DNA of 64,000 nt from the NCBI GenBank assembly GCA_009773515.1, contig WSXX01000016.1:62001-126000 (forward strand), given 5' to 3'. Position 1 is the stretch's first letter; each line of letters opens with the position of its first letter. The position numbers and the translations under genes are program-made. Origin of the DNA: Bacteroidota bacterium (GTDB lineage Bacteria; Bacteroidota; Bacteroidia; Bacteroidales; Lentimicrobiaceae). The notes under the pieces were generated by a model. That model searched no databases. It was given only the letters and a program-made list of their open reading frames with translations, and was not told the DNA's origin. This document shows, piece after piece, positions 33,220 through 38,389 of the stretch.

Positions 33220-33249
33220 ACCTGTATGCCTTATGTCTGGCATAAGTAT

Positions 33250-35895
33250 TTAGTAATACACCACCTCAACACCAGGCCTTTTTTCCTTAAACTTGTTTAC
33301 ATTTTTTTCTGAAATCCGGGTATTATATATCCTGAGAAGCTTCAGACTCATCAAATTCTCAATTGGTTTTAAACTGCTTATGCGGGTGTTAAAACATGAC
33401 AACTGCACAAGCGCTGAAGATGAAGAAAGTGCATTCAGACGCGTTACCTGAGTTCCGGATATATCAAGAGTATTAAGTTTTGTAAGAAATTCCAGGGGAT
33501 CAATATCTTTGACAGGCGTGTTTGAACAATTCAGTATCTCAAGACCCGAATTGGTAGTCAGCGGACTGAGGTCAGAAACCGGAGTGTTTGAGCAATCAAG
33601 CTCTTTCACCCGTTTAATCAATCCGACTGGAAGTACATCTGCCACCTGAGTTCCTGAAAACCTGAGCACCTCCAATTTCCTGAGTTGTGATACCGGCATC
33701 AGCGATGAAATATCACGGTTACGGCTGATGTCAAGTTCCTTAATTGATGTAATTCTATGTAATTGCTCACGGTCAGGTGTGCCAGTGTAAGGGTCAATTT
33801 CAGCAAAAACCTGCTTCCATGAGGCAGGGAGTGAACCCCACCAGCTTACCAATTCAGCGCTCTGATAAACAACCAGCAAATCAGGAATACTATCCCAAAT
33901 CTTTTCAACCGTATTTGCAACTGCCGGAACACCATCAGCAAAAAGTTTTTCCAACCGTGTCAGATTGAGGATGGCATTGACGCTTGCTGCCTGAACATTG
34001 TCCATTTCCAGGCGCTGCAGATTTCGCAGATTTCCAATCGGAGAAATATCTATCGCTTTTGTATCTGAAATATTTAGCAGATTAAGTCCGGTAATACCGG
34101 ATAAAGGGGTAAGATCAATAACTGCAGTTTTGGAAATATTCAGCTCCTTGAGATCGGGCAAATCTTTGATTTCGAGCACACTCTGAATTCCTGAAGAAGA
34201 TGCATCCAGATTAGACAAAGATGGAAGCTTCCTCAACGGAGCAAGCGTTTGAATCTCTGCGTTTCCTGAAATATCAATCTTACGCAGGTTTGATATCTCA
34301 TATAACTGCTCCCGAAGCGGCGGATTCTGAACTTCAACAAGATTGCTGAAAACTGATTTCCACGCTTCAGCAAGAGTTTCCCACCAAACAGAAAGTTCCT
34401 CTGACTCATAAATGACTTTTACTTCGGGACGAGACTGAATGAAAGTAAGGGCTGCCTGCTTTCCAATCATTGATTTATCGCAATAAATAACTTTCAGATC
34501 GGGAAGCTTAAGTAAAGGAGCAATGTTGTTAACCGGAGTATAATCAAGATAAATATATTGAAGCTTCGGCATGGCAGCCAAAGGAATGACATCATTCACA
34601 TAAGTTTTTGTGAGGTAAATCCGTTGAAGTGCATCCATACCTTCCAGTGCACTGATATCTGACAAAGGTATTCCTGACATATCAAGGGTTTCGAGTAAAC
34701 TTAAACCCGCGAGCCCATCAAGAGATTTAAGCGGCACACGCGAAATTTTCAACTCCCTTAATCCGGTAAGTTCGCGAAGCAAAGCAATATTTTCAAGCGG
34801 AGTATCAGAAAGATTGAGAAATTCCAGCATTTTGAAATTCCCGACAGGAGTAATATCAGTAACAAAAGTTGAGGAAATATCAAGATTTCTGAGTCCTGTG
34901 GTATATTGAACAGGATCTAAGGTGGTAATCAGGGTTGAGGAAGCATTCAGAGATTCAAGCTTCGAAAGATTTCGTATCGGCCCGAGTTCAGTAACTCTGG
35001 CACCTGAAATATTCAGATGTTTCAGCATTGTAAATGCGCTTAAAGGCTCAAGATCGTAGATTCCTTTAAGTCCGCTGATATCCATTTGCTCCAGTCTCCA
35101 TAATTTCCGAACCTCAGCCAGCAATGAAGCAGGAGCAGTTTTTATGGTATCGGCTTTTTGCAGAGAATCCGGTAAATTATTGTTGGTTTTCACCAGAAGA
35201 TAGTCGCGGCCAACCTGTTGAATGAAACTCATTTTCAACCCGTCGTTAAGAATGGTTTCACTTGCAAAATAATTTCTCCACACGTCATCCAGGGCATTCC
35301 ACCAGGCCATAAGTTCCTGCTCTTCGCTTGAACGTGTGGTATAAATACTAACAATTTTCAATCCCCGGCTGGCTTTGTCAAGATTAATTTCGATAAATCT
35401 TGGCCTGTTCTCGTTGATATCCTTGCCTTCAATAGTTTTTCCTTTAAGGTTTCGGCTTGACTTAACCTTAAAATAGGTTTCCCCTTTTTCGTTGACTTCT
35501 GTGGTAATCTCTTCGACGGTGTACTTAAAAGTAACTTCCCTGAAAAAGAAGTCAATATCTTTCAGATACGCCTGAATGTCTTTGTTTGTAACTACATCCC
35601 TTTTTTCAACCAGATCATCCTCTACCTGAACTTTGCCATCGCGAAAAAACTTAAGAAAGGATTGATTTATAATGATATCCTTATCTCTGTATTCCGATTT
35701 AGGACTTCCCAGCGTATTGAAAGCAAACTCCATAAATCCAACAAGTTGGGTTGCCTGCTTCTGAAAAGTGGCAAGCTCATCTGCACTTAAGGTATCAGTT
35801 ACAGGCCCTGCGGATGTTGCAGTATTCTGCGAAAAAGCATTTGCGGCAGCAAGTACAATCAGCAATGCAACAATAAATTGTTTTAAACTATTCAT
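33250..35895 (-). CDS. Secreted leucine-rich-repeat protein with three WW-capped LRR blocks
   Basis: An 881-residue protein. The signal peptide ends near residue 22 (ANAFS). Residues 45-190 form an N-terminal domain that resembles the whole 191-residue protein encoded at 36827-37402. Three super-modules follow, each opening with a WW cap (AWWNALDDVWRNYF near 198, VWWETLAEAWKSVF near 504, SWWGSLPASWKQVF near 686). Each continues with about 22-residue LRRs of internalin type (LxxLDISGTxVxDIxPL) and ends in a VxVIY-like strand. LRRs usually bind proteins; the partner is unknown. The gene overlaps the upstream gene by 8 bases. A surface or periplasmic scaffold role is inferred. Confidence 0.85.
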   Translation of the reverse strand: MNSLKQFIVALLIVLAAANAFSQNTATSAGPVTDTLSADELATFQKQATQLVGFMEFAFNTLGSPKSEYRDKDIIINQSFLKFFRDGKVQVEDDLVEKRDVVTNKDIQAYLKDIDFFFREVTFKYTVEEITTEVNEKGETYFKVKSSRNLKGKTIEGKDINENRPRFIEINLDKASRGLKIVSIYTTRSSEEQELMAWWNALDDVWRNYFASETILNDGLKMSFIQQVGRDYLLVKTNNNLPDSLQKADTIKTAPASLLAEVRKLWRLEQMDISGLKGIYDLEPLSAFTMLKHLNISGARVTELGPIRNLSKLESLNASSTLITTLDPVQYTTGLRNLDISSTFVTDITPVGNFKMLEFLNLSDTPLENIALLRELTGLRELKISRVPLKSLDGLAGLSLLETLDMSGIPLSDISALEGMDALQRIYLTKTYVNDVIPLAAMPKLQYIYLDYTPVNNIAPLLKLPDLKVIYCDKSMIGKQAALTFIQSRPEVKVIYESEELSVWWETLAEAWKSVFSNLVEVQNPPLREQLYEISNLRKIDISGNAEIQTLAPLRKLPSLSNLDASSSGIQSVLEIKDLPDLKELNISKTAVIDLTPLSGITGLNLLNISDTKAIDISPIGNLRNLQRLEMDNVQAASVNAILNLTRLEKLFADGVPAVANTVEKIWDSIPDLLVVYQSAELVSWWGSLPASWKQVFAEIDPYTGTPDREQLHRITSIKELDISRNRDISSLMPVSQLRKLEVLRFSGTQVADVLPVGLIKRVKELDCSNTPVSDLSPLTTNSGLEILNCSNTPVKDIDPLEFLTKLNTLDISGTQVTRLNALSSSSALVQLSCFNTRISSLKPIENLMSLKLLRIYNTRISEKNVNKFKEKRPGVEVVYY

Positions 35896-36715
35896 GGTAG
35901 ATGTATTTCAATAACACGTCTTTTTGATTTTCGTCAATCTCCATCAATCCGGAAATTAGCCAGCCTGAATTACCTCCTGGCCGGTTGAATTCTGACAATT
36001 CAAAATACCAGCCATCGATCTGAAAAAAGTGAAATTTAACATTGCTTACATTCTTAAATTTCAGATTTCCTTTTTTAAACTCATAGAGAAAAAGTGTCAG
36101 AAAATCGGGCTGATACTCTTTTTCGGTATAAAGGTCAACATATTCCTTTTCTTTAAAAACCCTCACCAGATTCATAAAATCGAGTTCATGACTGAGCGGA
36201 TGCAAAAAATGGCTGCCGCTTTCCTGATTGGTGTTAAACATCAGATGGAAATGCCTGAAATAAACCTTTGAAATCACCCACTTGTAACCAAGTTTTTCCT
36301 GTTCAAGCTTCATATATAAGGTAACATTTTCATCTTTTCCCTGATAAAGGAATCGGGTAGTAACTTCAGCAAACCATTGTCCCTGATGAAAATTTAAAAA
36401 TTGCGGAGCAGCAGAATTCAGGACATCACGGGTGAATGAATCGCGCATCGGGTCGGTCATTGATGCATTTTGCTGATCGAAGAGCACATTCAGATACTTG
36501 CGGCGTAATTCAGTGCTGCGATAATCCTTATCGGCAGGGTAATAGCGGTCGCCTTTTGCATTCTCCTCTCCATTGAATCTCCTGAAAAACTGATTCACCT
36601 GCTTGGTTTGTGCATTCAATATGCTTTCATCGCCAAGCATAGAATTAAATGCCTGAGCAGGAGCCAACATGGGAAATATGATCATCAGCATCAACAACTT
36701 AACGTATCTTGGCAT
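35888..36715 (-). CDS. Secreted protein of unknown function upstream of the LRR protein
   Basis: A 275-residue protein with a signal peptide (MPRYVKLLMLMIIFPMLAPAQ) and no recognised domain. Residues 36-75 contain QVNQFFRRFNGEE and RRKYLNVLFD. The rest is rich in aromatic beta-strand patterns (GYKWVISKVYFRHF, WYFELSEF), compatible with an NTF2-like or repeated alpha+beta fold. It overlaps the LRR gene by 8 bases, strong evidence for joint translation. Function unknown. Confidence 0.8.
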   Translation of the reverse strand: MPRYVKLLMLMIIFPMLAPAQAFNSMLGDESILNAQTKQVNQFFRRFNGEENAKGDRYYPADKDYRSTELRRKYLNVLFDQQNASMTDPMRDSFTRDVLNSAAPQFLNFHQGQWFAEVTTRFLYQGKDENVTLYMKLEQEKLGYKWVISKVYFRHFHLMFNTNQESGSHFLHPLSHELDFMNLVRVFKEKEYVDLYTEKEYQPDFLTLFLYEFKKGNLKFKNVSNVKFHFFQIDGWYFELSEFNRPGGNSGWLISGLMEIDENQKDVLLKYIYHE

Positions 36716-36761
36716 ATTTCAGGATTAATTAGAGAATCGGAAGTGGAAGTGAATTAAATTT

Positions 36762-36807
36762 ACAAAAATCTGGCTTCAACACATAAATAGTTAAGGTTGA
36801 AGCCAGA
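36762..36807 (-). terminator. Strong hairpin between the secreted-protein genes, probable terminator/attenuator
   Basis: A perfect 12-bp stem TCTGGCTTCAAC/GTTGAAGCCAGA with a 15-base loop (arms 36769-36780 and 36796-36807). On the minus strand it is followed by ATTTTTG, so it can terminate transcripts from the upstream gene pair before the 275-residue and LRR genes. No exact TAnnTTTG lies between it and the next gene, so partial read-through is likely. Confidence 0.7.
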
Positions 36808-36826
36808 ATTAAAATAGTTAAAATCA

Positions 36827-37402
36827 TCAACCGGGTTTGGTTTCAGATACCCTGATATCTCCAAGCAGAACATCCCAGAAACCTATAATACGGCCAGATA
36901 TCTGGGTAGTTTTACGTTCAACGTAAACTGTTACATCTTTTTTGGTAACGTCAACATATCTCAGGCCTTCTTCGGTAGTTCCTTCAAAACGCTGATAAAT
37001 GGTTATAACGCCTACATACCTGCCATCCGGCTGACGTTCCAGATCGCTGATATACTGAATGTTATACCACGAAATATTGACTTTATCATAATTAAGCGCC
37101 ATCAGTCTTTCAAGATACTCTCTTACGCCGTAATAATTAACCTCTTCTTTGCTGAGGGATGAAACTCCCATCAGGGCACCATCAGCAAAAAGCTCAAGGG
37201 TGCGTTCTATTACGCGGTTTGCTTCCGACCAGGGGGTATCTTTGTTTCCAACGATGCTGATGTATTTGCTCAGATCACGGACTTTTTCAAGAGCAAGAGA
37301 GTCAATTGCCTGCTTGCGTGAAGGGCTGATATCGTCCTGCGCCCATGTGTTGCCTGCTGAAAAAATCATCAAAGCAGCCAGTATTCCTAAGATTTTTGTC
37401 AT
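36827..37402 (-). CDS. Small secreted protein sharing a domain with the LRR protein
   Basis: A 191-residue protein with a signal peptide (MTKILGILAALMIFSAGNTWA). The mature part can be aligned by eye with residues 45-190 of the LRR protein: vGNkdTpwSEaN versus LGSPKSEYRDKD, LELFADGA versus FLKFFRDGK, and VREYLERLMAL versus IQAYLKDIDFF, followed by a beta-rich half. The two probably share one domain used alone here and as an N-terminal cap there. It starts 6 bases after the lipoprotein gene. No known family recognised. Confidence 0.75.
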   Translation of the reverse strand: MTKILGILAALMIFSAGNTWAQDDISPSRKQAIDSLALEKVRDLSKYISIVGNKDTPWSEANRVIERTLELFADGALMGVSSLSKEEVNYYGVREYLERLMALNYDKVNISWYNIQYISDLERQPDGRYVGVITIYQRFEGTTEEGLRYVDVTKKDVTVYVERKTTQISGRIIGFWDVLLGDIRVSETKPG

Positions 37403-37408
37403 GATTAT

Positions 37409-38098
37409 TTATTTTTTAATCAGTTCCAGTTCTTTAATTTTTCCATTGTTGTCAAGCACTGCATTGAGCACCTTGTTTGGTGATTTTTTCTGGTCTTTGA
37501 TAAATTCCAGATATTTCCTGATGGTGGTAGGTCTGTCGTAATCCTTGATATCACCATCGCTGCTTATCAAAATCAAAACAGGAACTTCATCACCTGCAAA
37601 AGCAGCCATCGCTTCACGAATACGGGCGTTGGCTGATGAAACATCACTTGCCGAAGCAACGGCATCCAACGACTGGTTAATTGCTCTGAACTGTCCACCT
37701 TCACGCAATTCGCGTTCACGGGCTTCTTTTTCCCGCTGCATTCTTTCTTCTTCTTTTTTACGCTCAACTGCGGCACGCTCTCTGGCAAGAACCTCTTCAG
37801 CCTGAACAATCAGATCCTTAACTTCCTGATCTTCAAGATTCATCCGCTTAATGGTTGCAAGTTTAAATTCTTTTTCTTCAAGAGTCATCCTGCCATCATC
37901 ATTAATAATTGCCAGAAGATCGGTCTTTGCTTTGGCAGTTTTTTCAGCCAGCTCCATAGCGGCTTTCTTTTTGGCTGCTTTTTTTGAGCTTTTGCATGAT
38001 GTGAAACTTGCCCCTAAAGAGACGATCAACATCATTACCAAAAACATCCTGAACTTACCCGCAAAATTAAAGCGGAGTTGGTTTTCTGTGTTCATCAT
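37409..38098 (-). CDS. Lipoprotein with charged helical region, first gene of the secreted operon
   Basis: A 229-residue protein with a signal sequence ending in lipobox ASFTSC (Cys35), then a Lys/Ala-rich linker (KSSKKAAKKKAA). Residues 50-100 read DDGRMTLEEKEFKL followed by NLEDQEVKDLIVQAEE, resembling TerB-like helical repeats. A very charged coiled-coil (EVLARERAAVERKKEEER) comes next. The last 70 residues form a small alpha/beta domain (VPVLILISSDGDIKDYDRP). An ATG two codons in could also serve as start. It heads the four-gene group and has a promoter and leader hairpin upstream. Function unknown. Confidence 0.75.
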   Translation of the reverse strand: MMNTENQLRFNFAGKFRMFLVMMLIVSLGASFTSCKSSKKAAKKKAAMELAEKTAKAKTDLLAIINDDGRMTLEEKEFKLATIKRMNLEDQEVKDLIVQAEEVLARERAAVERKKEEERMQREKEARERELREGGQFRAINQSLDAVASASDVSSANARIREAMAAFAGDEVPVLILISSDGDIKDYDRPTTIRKYLEFIKDQKKSPNKVLNAVLDNNGKIKELELIKK

Positions 38099-38168
38099 GA
38101 TTAAGTATTAATTTGGGTTTAAAACTCATTTTGCTATCAAAAATTGTGCGATTCTGCACAGAAATGCC

Positions 38169-38198
38169 GGGACTTAGCAATTTTTGTTAAGTCCCGCA
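38169..38198. other. Leader hairpin upstream of the secreted operon
   Basis: A 9-bp perfect stem CGGGACTTA/TAAGTCCCG extended inward by GCAA/GTT pairing and outward by AAATGC/GCATTT across one bulged C. It lies between the candidate promoter and the lipoprotein ATG, so it would form near the 5' end of the mRNA. On the plus strand it is followed by TTTTATTTT and could act as a terminator, but no plus-strand gene precedes it. Confidence 0.6.
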
Positions 38199-38208
38199 TT
38201 TTATTTTA

Positions 38209-38241
38209 CAAAGTTAATTTATTTTCATTCTTAATAAACAA
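38209..38241 (-). promoter_or_regulatory. Candidate promoter of the secreted LRR operon
   Basis: On the minus strand: TTG (38239-38241), a 22-base spacer, then TAACTTTG (38209-38216), the same layout as the promoter at 31343-31375. The predicted leader is about 100 bases and contains the hairpin at 38169-38198. Confidence 0.45.
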
Positions 38242-38353: not shown

Positions 38354-38384
38354 GGCAAAAAAAAATCCCTTGTTAAAGGGATTT
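38354..38384 (-). terminator. Terminator after tRNA-Leu
   Basis: Stem AAATCCCTT/AAGGGATTT with a 4-base loop, followed on the minus strand by a run of nine T including the end of the stem. Confidence 0.88.
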
Positions 38385-38389
38385 CGGTG

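Follow-up and report, generated by a model that had tools for sequence, protein, structure and literature searches.

The locus described here raises the question of what four adjacent genes for exported proteins, three of which matched no sequence family in the databases searched, do together in the cell envelope. The genes lie at positions 33250–38098 of a 64,000-nt stretch (the window) of contig WSXX01000016.1 from a member of the Lentimicrobiaceae. They are encoded on the minus strand in the order LP229 (37409–38098), P191 (36827–37402), P275 (35888–36715) and LRR881 (33250–35895), and are one operon. LP229 is a lipoprotein with a lipidation site at Cys35, a basic/helical linker and a C-terminal domain (residues 130–229) that appears related to P191. 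P191 is a stand-alone protein of predicted NTF2-like fold and the most conserved member of the set, P275 is its neighbour and candidate partner without a clear known fold, and LRR881 combines a P191-like N-terminal domain with three blocks of 22-residue leucine-rich repeats (LRRs). An earlier note on this DNA had described two pairs of genes in one direction, with a 6-base gap or an 8-base overlap within each pair; the coordinates agree, LP229 and P191 being 6 bases apart and P275 and LRR881 overlapping by 8, with a gap of 111 bases between P191 and P275. Signal peptides were judged by eye. We regard it as an evenly balanced call that the operon specifies a lipid-anchored complex on the periplasmic side, with P191 as an NTF2-like hub, LRR881 as an arm, LP229 as a tether and P275 as a partner.

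Conservation of the operon

P191 was present in all 19 genomes of the genus. The same order of all four genes recurs in 17 of the 18 genomes other than that of the window, some of these loci being clipped by contig ends and one having a split LRR gene; the sole miss (L059) sits at a contig end. A sample of the order gave a P191 match in 45 of 198 genomes, 36 of them close (E ≤ 4.2e-68). Of the close ones 33 were from outside the genus, and loci were fetched from 31 (G034 and G180 excluded). The four-gene order was seen in 25 of the 31, the lipoprotein gene of L090 lying 2.3 kb away, and the other six comprised four with LP229 and P191 only, one with P191 only and one without LP229 at a contig end.

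A scan of named genomes found at least 513 relatives, the best 80 of which were used; many of these records are shared with the genus and order sets. Among the best 80, LP229 was present in all, P275 adjoined P191 in 77 and the LRR gene was found in 71, and the four-gene order was kept in 71. Five of the nine loci without the LRR gene end with the contig, L149 has ~890 bases left and no match in them, and L168, L176 and L186 have neither P275 nor the LRR gene. The record titles place 33 of the 80 in Bacteroidales and 29 in Cytophagales, some titles being wrong or vague. The earlier note had proposed joint conservation in related genomes as one test of its idea, and the genes proved to be conserved together in the genus, in the order and in the best named-genome loci. 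No gene family outside the operon was widely recurrent; the largest such cluster of neighbours, apparently mixed, reached 21 of the 80 loci.

A P191 match was also found in 86 of 241 genomes of a Cytophagales sample, 55 of the close type. In a phylum-wide sample it was found in 8 of 395, six of them close, with the window genome counted; the distribution of the operon is therefore patchy. Cultured carriers of all four genes are Marivirga, Fulvivirga, Roseivirga and Flexithrix.

Apart from the four genes and the tRNA genes, window genes are named here from translations read by eye. P191 shares 84–94% identity with its counterparts in ten of the 18 other genus loci, and the same comparison gave 74–81% for MutS (seven loci), 57–77% for P275, 63–84% for LP229 and 48–67% for LRR881. 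In two loci of another family, the identity was 74–75% for P191 and 68–70% for MutS, and P191 exceeded MutS in each of the nine loci that allowed the comparison. Across 63 sequences, 62 of the 191 positions of P191 are invariant. The ratio of non-synonymous to synonymous substitution (dN/dS) for the four genes was 0.01–0.10 in the comparison with L049, where synonymous sites are nearly saturated. Saturation limited the computation to some of the pairs, which gave 0.01–0.19. The low dN/dS shows the four genes to be truly coding.

A P275 tree was built by a quick method from 54 rows, representing the window and the named-genome loci after removal of duplicates, out of 104 sequences. It groups orders (7 changes for Cytophagales, compared with a mean of 12.5 on shuffling). 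Lateral transfer was considered and not adopted, as the tree shows neither transfer nor vertical descent, many deep forks being without support and some titles wrong. Two probably mislabelled bins were seen in it: P275 of L151, titled Bacteroides, is nearly identical to that of Ohtaekwangia, and P275 of L149, titled Thalassobius, groups with that of Flexithrix.

Fold of P191 and P275

In agreement with the earlier note, the three smaller proteins could not be assigned to a known family. Pfam gave no row for P275 or LP229 and a single row at E 0.2 for P191, NCBIfam gave only rows at E 0.03 or worse for the three, PADLOC gave no match, and searches of PDB sequences with the three family profiles were empty or returned noise, nothing credible.

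The AlphaFold2 model of P191 (predicted local distance difference test score, pLDDT, 89.8; predicted template modelling score, pTM, 0.78) contains helices at residues 27–52, 58–69 and 93–102 and long strands. It matched NTF2-like folds in Foldseek (best E 7.5e-4) and in VIA, where 716 of 999 chains reached Z ≥ 8. The best VIA match was to 3rob_A (Z 13.5; root mean square deviation, rmsd, 2.5 over 129 aligned residues), and high matches were also obtained to LinA (3s5c_E; Z 13.3, rmsd 2.3, 129 aligned) and to PA1314 (1tp6; Z 12.4, rmsd 2.7, 123 aligned). Thus, we are confident that the predicted fold of P191 is NTF2-like (cystatin-like), i.e. a cone-shaped alpha+beta fold with three helices and a curved antiparallel sheet. 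P191 differs from the known members of this superfamily in lacking a credible Pfam or PDB sequence match, and no known member in an operon with lipoprotein and LRR genes was found. The NTF2-like proteins of type IV secretion systems are also similar, as seen with CagV (6iqt; Z 11.1, rmsd 3.5, 127 aligned) and the periplasmic fragment of TraM (3wz3; Z 11.0, rmsd 3.4, 131 aligned). However, unlike the VirB8/TraM/CagV group P191 has only a signal-like helix at the N-terminus, and no type IV gene was recognised by eye among its recurrent neighbours.

The model of P275 (pLDDT 85.6, pTM 0.78) gave no confident structure match. Weak rows of the NTF2 and VirB8 types were returned, the best being a designed NTF2 protein (Z 5.4, rmsd 3.5, 98 aligned), and the best Foldseek match was to an unrelated chain at E 0.02; nothing exceeded Z 5.4 among the VIA rows, which is not evidence for a new fold. 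Homology of P275 to P191 found no support, there being no profile signal and the observed score being reached by 28 of 100 shuffles for each half of the protein.

A probable shared domain in three of the proteins

The earlier note had taken the 191-residue protein for a stand-alone version of the N-terminal domain of the LRR protein. Profile comparison with hhalign supports this: the P191 and LRR N-domain profiles matched at E 1.7e-7 (probability 93.8) with signal peptides and at E 9.4e-5 (probability 58.8) as mature domains, and the score of 34.6 exceeded those of all 100 column shuffles (mean 14.0, maximum 30.8). The domain corresponds to residues ~24–190 of LRR881 (35326–35826, minus strand). 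A search of the whole genome with the P191 profile returned at E ≤ 1 only P191 itself and the LRR N-domain (E 7.2e-5, the match taking in the signal peptide). In the reverse direction, a hidden Markov model (HMM) of the LRR N-domain without signal peptide detected, with E between 1e-5 and 8e-4, 11 open reading frames (ORFs) of the P191 type, two being the same record; nine of the matches span approximately positions 4–145, and those in L222 and L238 slightly less. Applied to the 3111 ORFs of the 80 named loci, the same HMM matched operon proteins only. Of the structural match that the note had expected between P191 and residues 45–190 of the LRR protein, the P191 side was modelled and is predicted to be NTF2-like, and the LRR side was compared by profiles.

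A further related domain, absent from the earlier note, which had named two of the three, was found at the C-terminus of LP229. It matched P191 at E 5.7e-6 (probability 85.5) over 66 columns, with a score of 37.7 as compared with a maximum of 18.3 in 100 shuffles. Hence, related domains appear to be present in three of the four operon proteins, P191, LRR881 and LP229. An NTF2-like fold is supported for the LRR881 N-domain, at modest strength, and for the LP229 C-domain, in both cases by profile homology to P191 only.

LRR881 as a putative arm and LP229 as a putative anchor

LRR881 is the only operon protein with known Pfam domains (LRR_4, E 1.3e-44). Residues 198–881 (33253–35304, minus strand) consist of LRR blocks with three WW..L...W...F caps (residues 198, 504 and 685), and the 22-residue repeats are internalin-like, with a match to NCBIfam internalin_H at E 2.5e-49. 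The score of 168.4 bits is below the internalin_H cut-off of 1050, however, so that LRR881 does not qualify as a class 1 internalin, and it further differs from internalin-type proteins in its other N-terminal domain, its three WW-capped blocks, its Gram-negative host and the lack of a listed surface-anchoring domain.

Among 82 family members, 782–912 residues long (a range that partly results from a 780–960 length filter), the cap occurs three times in 63 and twice in 19. The N-domain is the most conserved part (0.81 in the genus and 0.60 in all 82), compared with 0.63–0.73 and 0.44–0.53 for the LRR blocks. Repeat positions 5, 7 and 8, which we take to be on the concave face, are on average somewhat more conserved than positions 12, 15, 18, 19, 21 and 22, presumably convex, as scored over 23 windows, a few of them out of phase. 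Because the architecture is fixed and these concave positions are somewhat more conserved, LRR881 would suit the role of a binding arm that is fixed, and a diversifying receptor is not favoured. In L061, L092, L143 and L173 the LRR gene occupies two reading frames, by assembly error or decay.

The lipid Cys of LP229 (Cys35) is invariant in all 28 aligned members, and the region past it is net basic in 27 of the 28. The surface-export (LES) signal of lipoproteins, as described in PMC5080379, consists of two acidic residues shortly behind the lipid Cys; positions +2 to +6 hold no acidic pair in any of the 28 members, the window protein included. LP229 thus differs from surface-exported lipoproteins of that kind and, given the basic stretch and the missing pair, we infer that it is probably periplasm-facing. 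LP229 has one match in its own genome. A second strong LP229 match (E 4.3e-81) was seen in one genome of the genus (G004:C80:120660-121286), through duplication or an assembly effect.

Distant relatives of P191

Distant P191 relatives were examined at 53 loci (L067, L099–L107, L188–L198 and L203–L234), 25 of which also have a P275 relative. In neighbouring proteins the LRR881-type N-domain is fused to other modules, namely FGE-sulfatase and Fib_succ_major (both in L101), an outer-membrane barrel (L104), tetratricopeptide repeats (TPRs; L206, L207, L217 and L221) and, just below the Pfam cut-off, fn3 (L203). For a P191 type of ~400 residues, a protein with a direct match to the N-domain HMM is encoded 1–3 genes downstream in 16 of 20 fetched loci, and P275 lies beside P191 in 8 of the 20. 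In family f130 an OmpA-domain gene often takes the place of P275 (scanned in L210, assigned by clustering in others). These arrangements suggest that P191, often with P275, may be a reusable core beside LRR-N-domain proteins.

Proteins with a Peptidase_C14 domain are encoded at six P191/P275 loci (L101, L103, L107, L188, L225 and L226), and L195 showed a weak match to a caspase model; these neighbours were chosen by eye before scanning, so that no frequency can be derived from them. The four operon proteins, the only window proteins scanned for Peptidase_C14, do not contain it. L101 (3270–18294) holds two P191 relatives, a long P275 relative and genes for a caspase, a papain-like protease, FGE, Fib_succ_major, TPR and kinase/MORN proteins, and has the appearance of a conflict or signalling locus with exported products. 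A recurring pair, in which a very distant P191 relative stands behind a similar protein of ~310 residues, was noted in L067 (8555–10125), L190 (1363–2937) and L191 (8440–10016). P191 relatives in L104, L105, L106 and L189 are neighboured by a giant protein and by one of ~640 residues, which in L104 is the outer-membrane barrel; L104, L105 and L106 have P275 as well.

Putative regulatory elements and flanking genes

A promoter −7-like element, TAACTTTG (38209–38216, minus strand), of the TAnnTTTG type, presumably the −7 consensus of Bacteroidota, lies 110 nt upstream of LP229, and a TTG is found 22 nt further upstream at 38239–38241. The position is kept in the genus: of the 16 loci whose upstream sequence is complete over 260 nt, the window being one, 15 have TAnnTTTG 99–125 nt ahead of LP229 (L064 is the miss, and the upstream regions of L052, L063 and L065 are too short), in a count over related loci without a shuffle control. 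A leader hairpin of 13 pairs (38168–38196, minus strand) is not conserved; leaders of relatives fold weakly or differently, and the terminator-like match of the window hairpin points to the plus strand.

The P191–P275 gap contains an attenuator-like hairpin followed by a T-run (36769–36807, minus strand), with a folding z of −4.1. With 60 shuffles for each gap, z ≤ −2 was obtained in 16 of the 19 genus gaps (L049, L053 and L064 miss), the sequence varying by species, and in 11 of the 13 gaps in other families that measure at least 40 nt. A stem-then-T-run terminator rule held in 15 of the 19 genus gaps, but as many as 22 of 30 shuffles satisfied it too; hence the fold, and not the T-run, is the solid part. 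The earlier note had listed a promoter, a leader hairpin and an internal attenuator and had proposed separate dosing of the two gene pairs. The internal hairpin between the pairs, like the promoter position, is kept in the genus, and separate dosing, which may hold there, is partly supported; the leader hairpin was not conserved.

On its upstream side the operon is flanked by a terminator-like hairpin, tRNA-Leu, tRNA-Gly and a gene read by eye as mutS. The hairpin (38362–38385, minus strand) is located just past tRNA-Leu and parts the operon from the tRNA genes. A convergent gene follows downstream, its translation read by eye as an ABC ATPase, and between it and LRR881 lies a weak terminator-like inverted repeat (33225–33244), reported on the plus strand. 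The two tRNAs were the only RNA families above cut-off in the window.

Proposed assembly and alternatives

In the lipid-anchored complex that we propose, P191 would be the NTF2-like hub on the periplasmic side of the envelope, tethered to a membrane by LP229. The homology of the domains leads us to suppose that those of LP229 and LRR881 dock on P191, possibly as mixed NTF2-type dimers. LRR881 would extend its fixed, three-block, internalin-like arm to bind a conserved partner, and P275 would complete the P191 side. Within the genus, attenuation past P191 would make LP229 and P191 more abundant than P275 and LRR881. The most likely output would be envelope sensing or scaffolding.

Several observations weigh against this proposal. 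The NTF2 fold that P191 shares with so many proteins gives no function by itself, and the conservation of P191 in the genus is roughly matched by that of a neighbouring sugar-nucleotide dehydratase-like gene (81–90%, higher in L066). The mature-domain match between P191 and LRR881 is modest (probability 58.8, one shuffle scoring 30.8), the LRR N-domain HMM catches at E 1e-3 only one of the 80 P191 proteins of the named loci, and the LP229 and LRR881 domains do not match directly (score 17.3, reached by 4 of 100 shuffles). Concave LRR position 3 is not above the convex positions in conservation. The internal hairpin is not general, as P191 and P275 overlap without one in 10 of 26 loci of other families. 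Seven loci (L083, L089, L097, L098, L168, L176 and L186) have LP229–P191 without P275–LRR, and L096 keeps P191 only, contrary to a rigid four-gene unit; absence in these eight was judged at the locus, not genome-wide. The operon, its conservation, the predicted fold of P191 and the profile homology of the three domains are documented; complex formation, docking, location, LRR binding, dosage and a ligand are all matters that we infer.

Among the alternatives, a periplasmic assembly that aids parts or cargo of the type IX secretion system (T9SS) and gliding machinery is unlikely. In the order sample GldM is found in each of the 45 genomes that have a P191 match, and the carriers are Cytophagales and environmental Bacteroidales; however, GldM is also present in 137 of the 153 genomes without P191, so this distribution has little power to discriminate and is confounded by shared ancestry. 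With GldM in 182 of 198 genomes, co-occurrence was discarded as a sign of a T9SS link. Furthermore, no T9SS gene was recognised by eye among the recurrent neighbours, and no T9SS C-terminal domain was listed for LRR881 in Pfam or NCBIfam up to E 1. We rate as equally unlikely a role of P191 in catalysis or in carrying a small ligand by means of the NTF2 pocket, as in LinA, scytalone dehydratase and ketosteroid isomerase, with the LRR protein presenting the substrate. LinA and a putative scytalone dehydratase are among the top structural matches, and an invariant alternating row, Y149-D151-T153-K155, is kept even in distant relatives, but the fold is common to many non-enzymes (CaMKII hub, CagV and TraM rows) and the very different settings of the relatives are a better fit for a scaffold.

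Less probable still is a contact-dependent antagonism module, in which the P191 family would build or dock an injection device related to the type VI secretion system of subtype iii (T6SS-iii). The likeness to the T6SS-iii membrane complex (TssNQOPR) is the presence of tssN near some distant relatives. TssN and a non-canonical P191 relative occur together in 14 genomes; in nine of them (G403, G581, G667, G718, G750, G759, G767, G775 and G818) TssN is no more than 25 kb from a P191 relative, and in the other five it is on another contig. TssN was also found in L193, a ClpB-type AAA protein and PAAR in L194, and an OmpA-domain protein in L210. However, all nine linked cases belong to family f130, and TssN is missing from 14 of 28 genomes with a non-canonical P191 type, from G407, which has both P191 types, and, with no match at all, from the window genome and two other genus genomes (G001 and G012); it was present in one (G607) of 11 Cytophagales genomes with a canonical-type match only. 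Some of the f130 loci L193, L194, L210–L212, L214–L216, L219 and L220, all from Cytophagales genomes, lie in or near T6SS-iii surroundings, often with OmpA-type and LRR-N-domain genes. According to PMC10781749, a text search of which found no NTF2, T6SS-iii that lack part of the membrane complex occur above all in Spirosoma, Hymenobacter and Flavobacterium, and the f130 genes could be substitutes for such missing parts. An immunity or toxin-neutralising locus is very improbable. Imm-NTF2 and Imm-LRR proteins are listed for polymorphic toxin systems in PMC3482391; against this, the proteins are exported as judged by eye from their N-termini, LP229 is single in its genome, conservation is wide under purifying selection, and neither a toxin domain in the four proteins (Pfam and NCBIfam) nor a PADLOC match was found.

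Beyond the canonical operon, it is a tentative proposal, to which we give somewhat less credence than to the lipid-anchored complex, that proteins of the P191 family form the centre of a modular extracytoplasmic machinery of Bacteroidota that has so far gone undescribed. The NTF2-like hub, often with P275, would take exchangeable arms through a shared docking domain: LRR in the canonical operon, and TPR, FGE-sulfatase-like, Fib_succ_major, outer-membrane barrel and perhaps fn3 elsewhere. One and the same hub would serve in a conserved envelope complex, at secreted-caspase loci and, in a single family, at T6SS loci. No description of such a system was found in searches of open-licence papers.

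Significance

P191 is a small exported protein that is more conserved than MutS, belongs to one operon across Bacteroidales and Cytophagales, and is unmatched in the libraries used. The cultured carriers make the operon directly testable. If the hub model is true, a common envelope module of Bacteroidota would have been overlooked, and its relatives would tie secreted caspases and T6SS loci to one adaptor.

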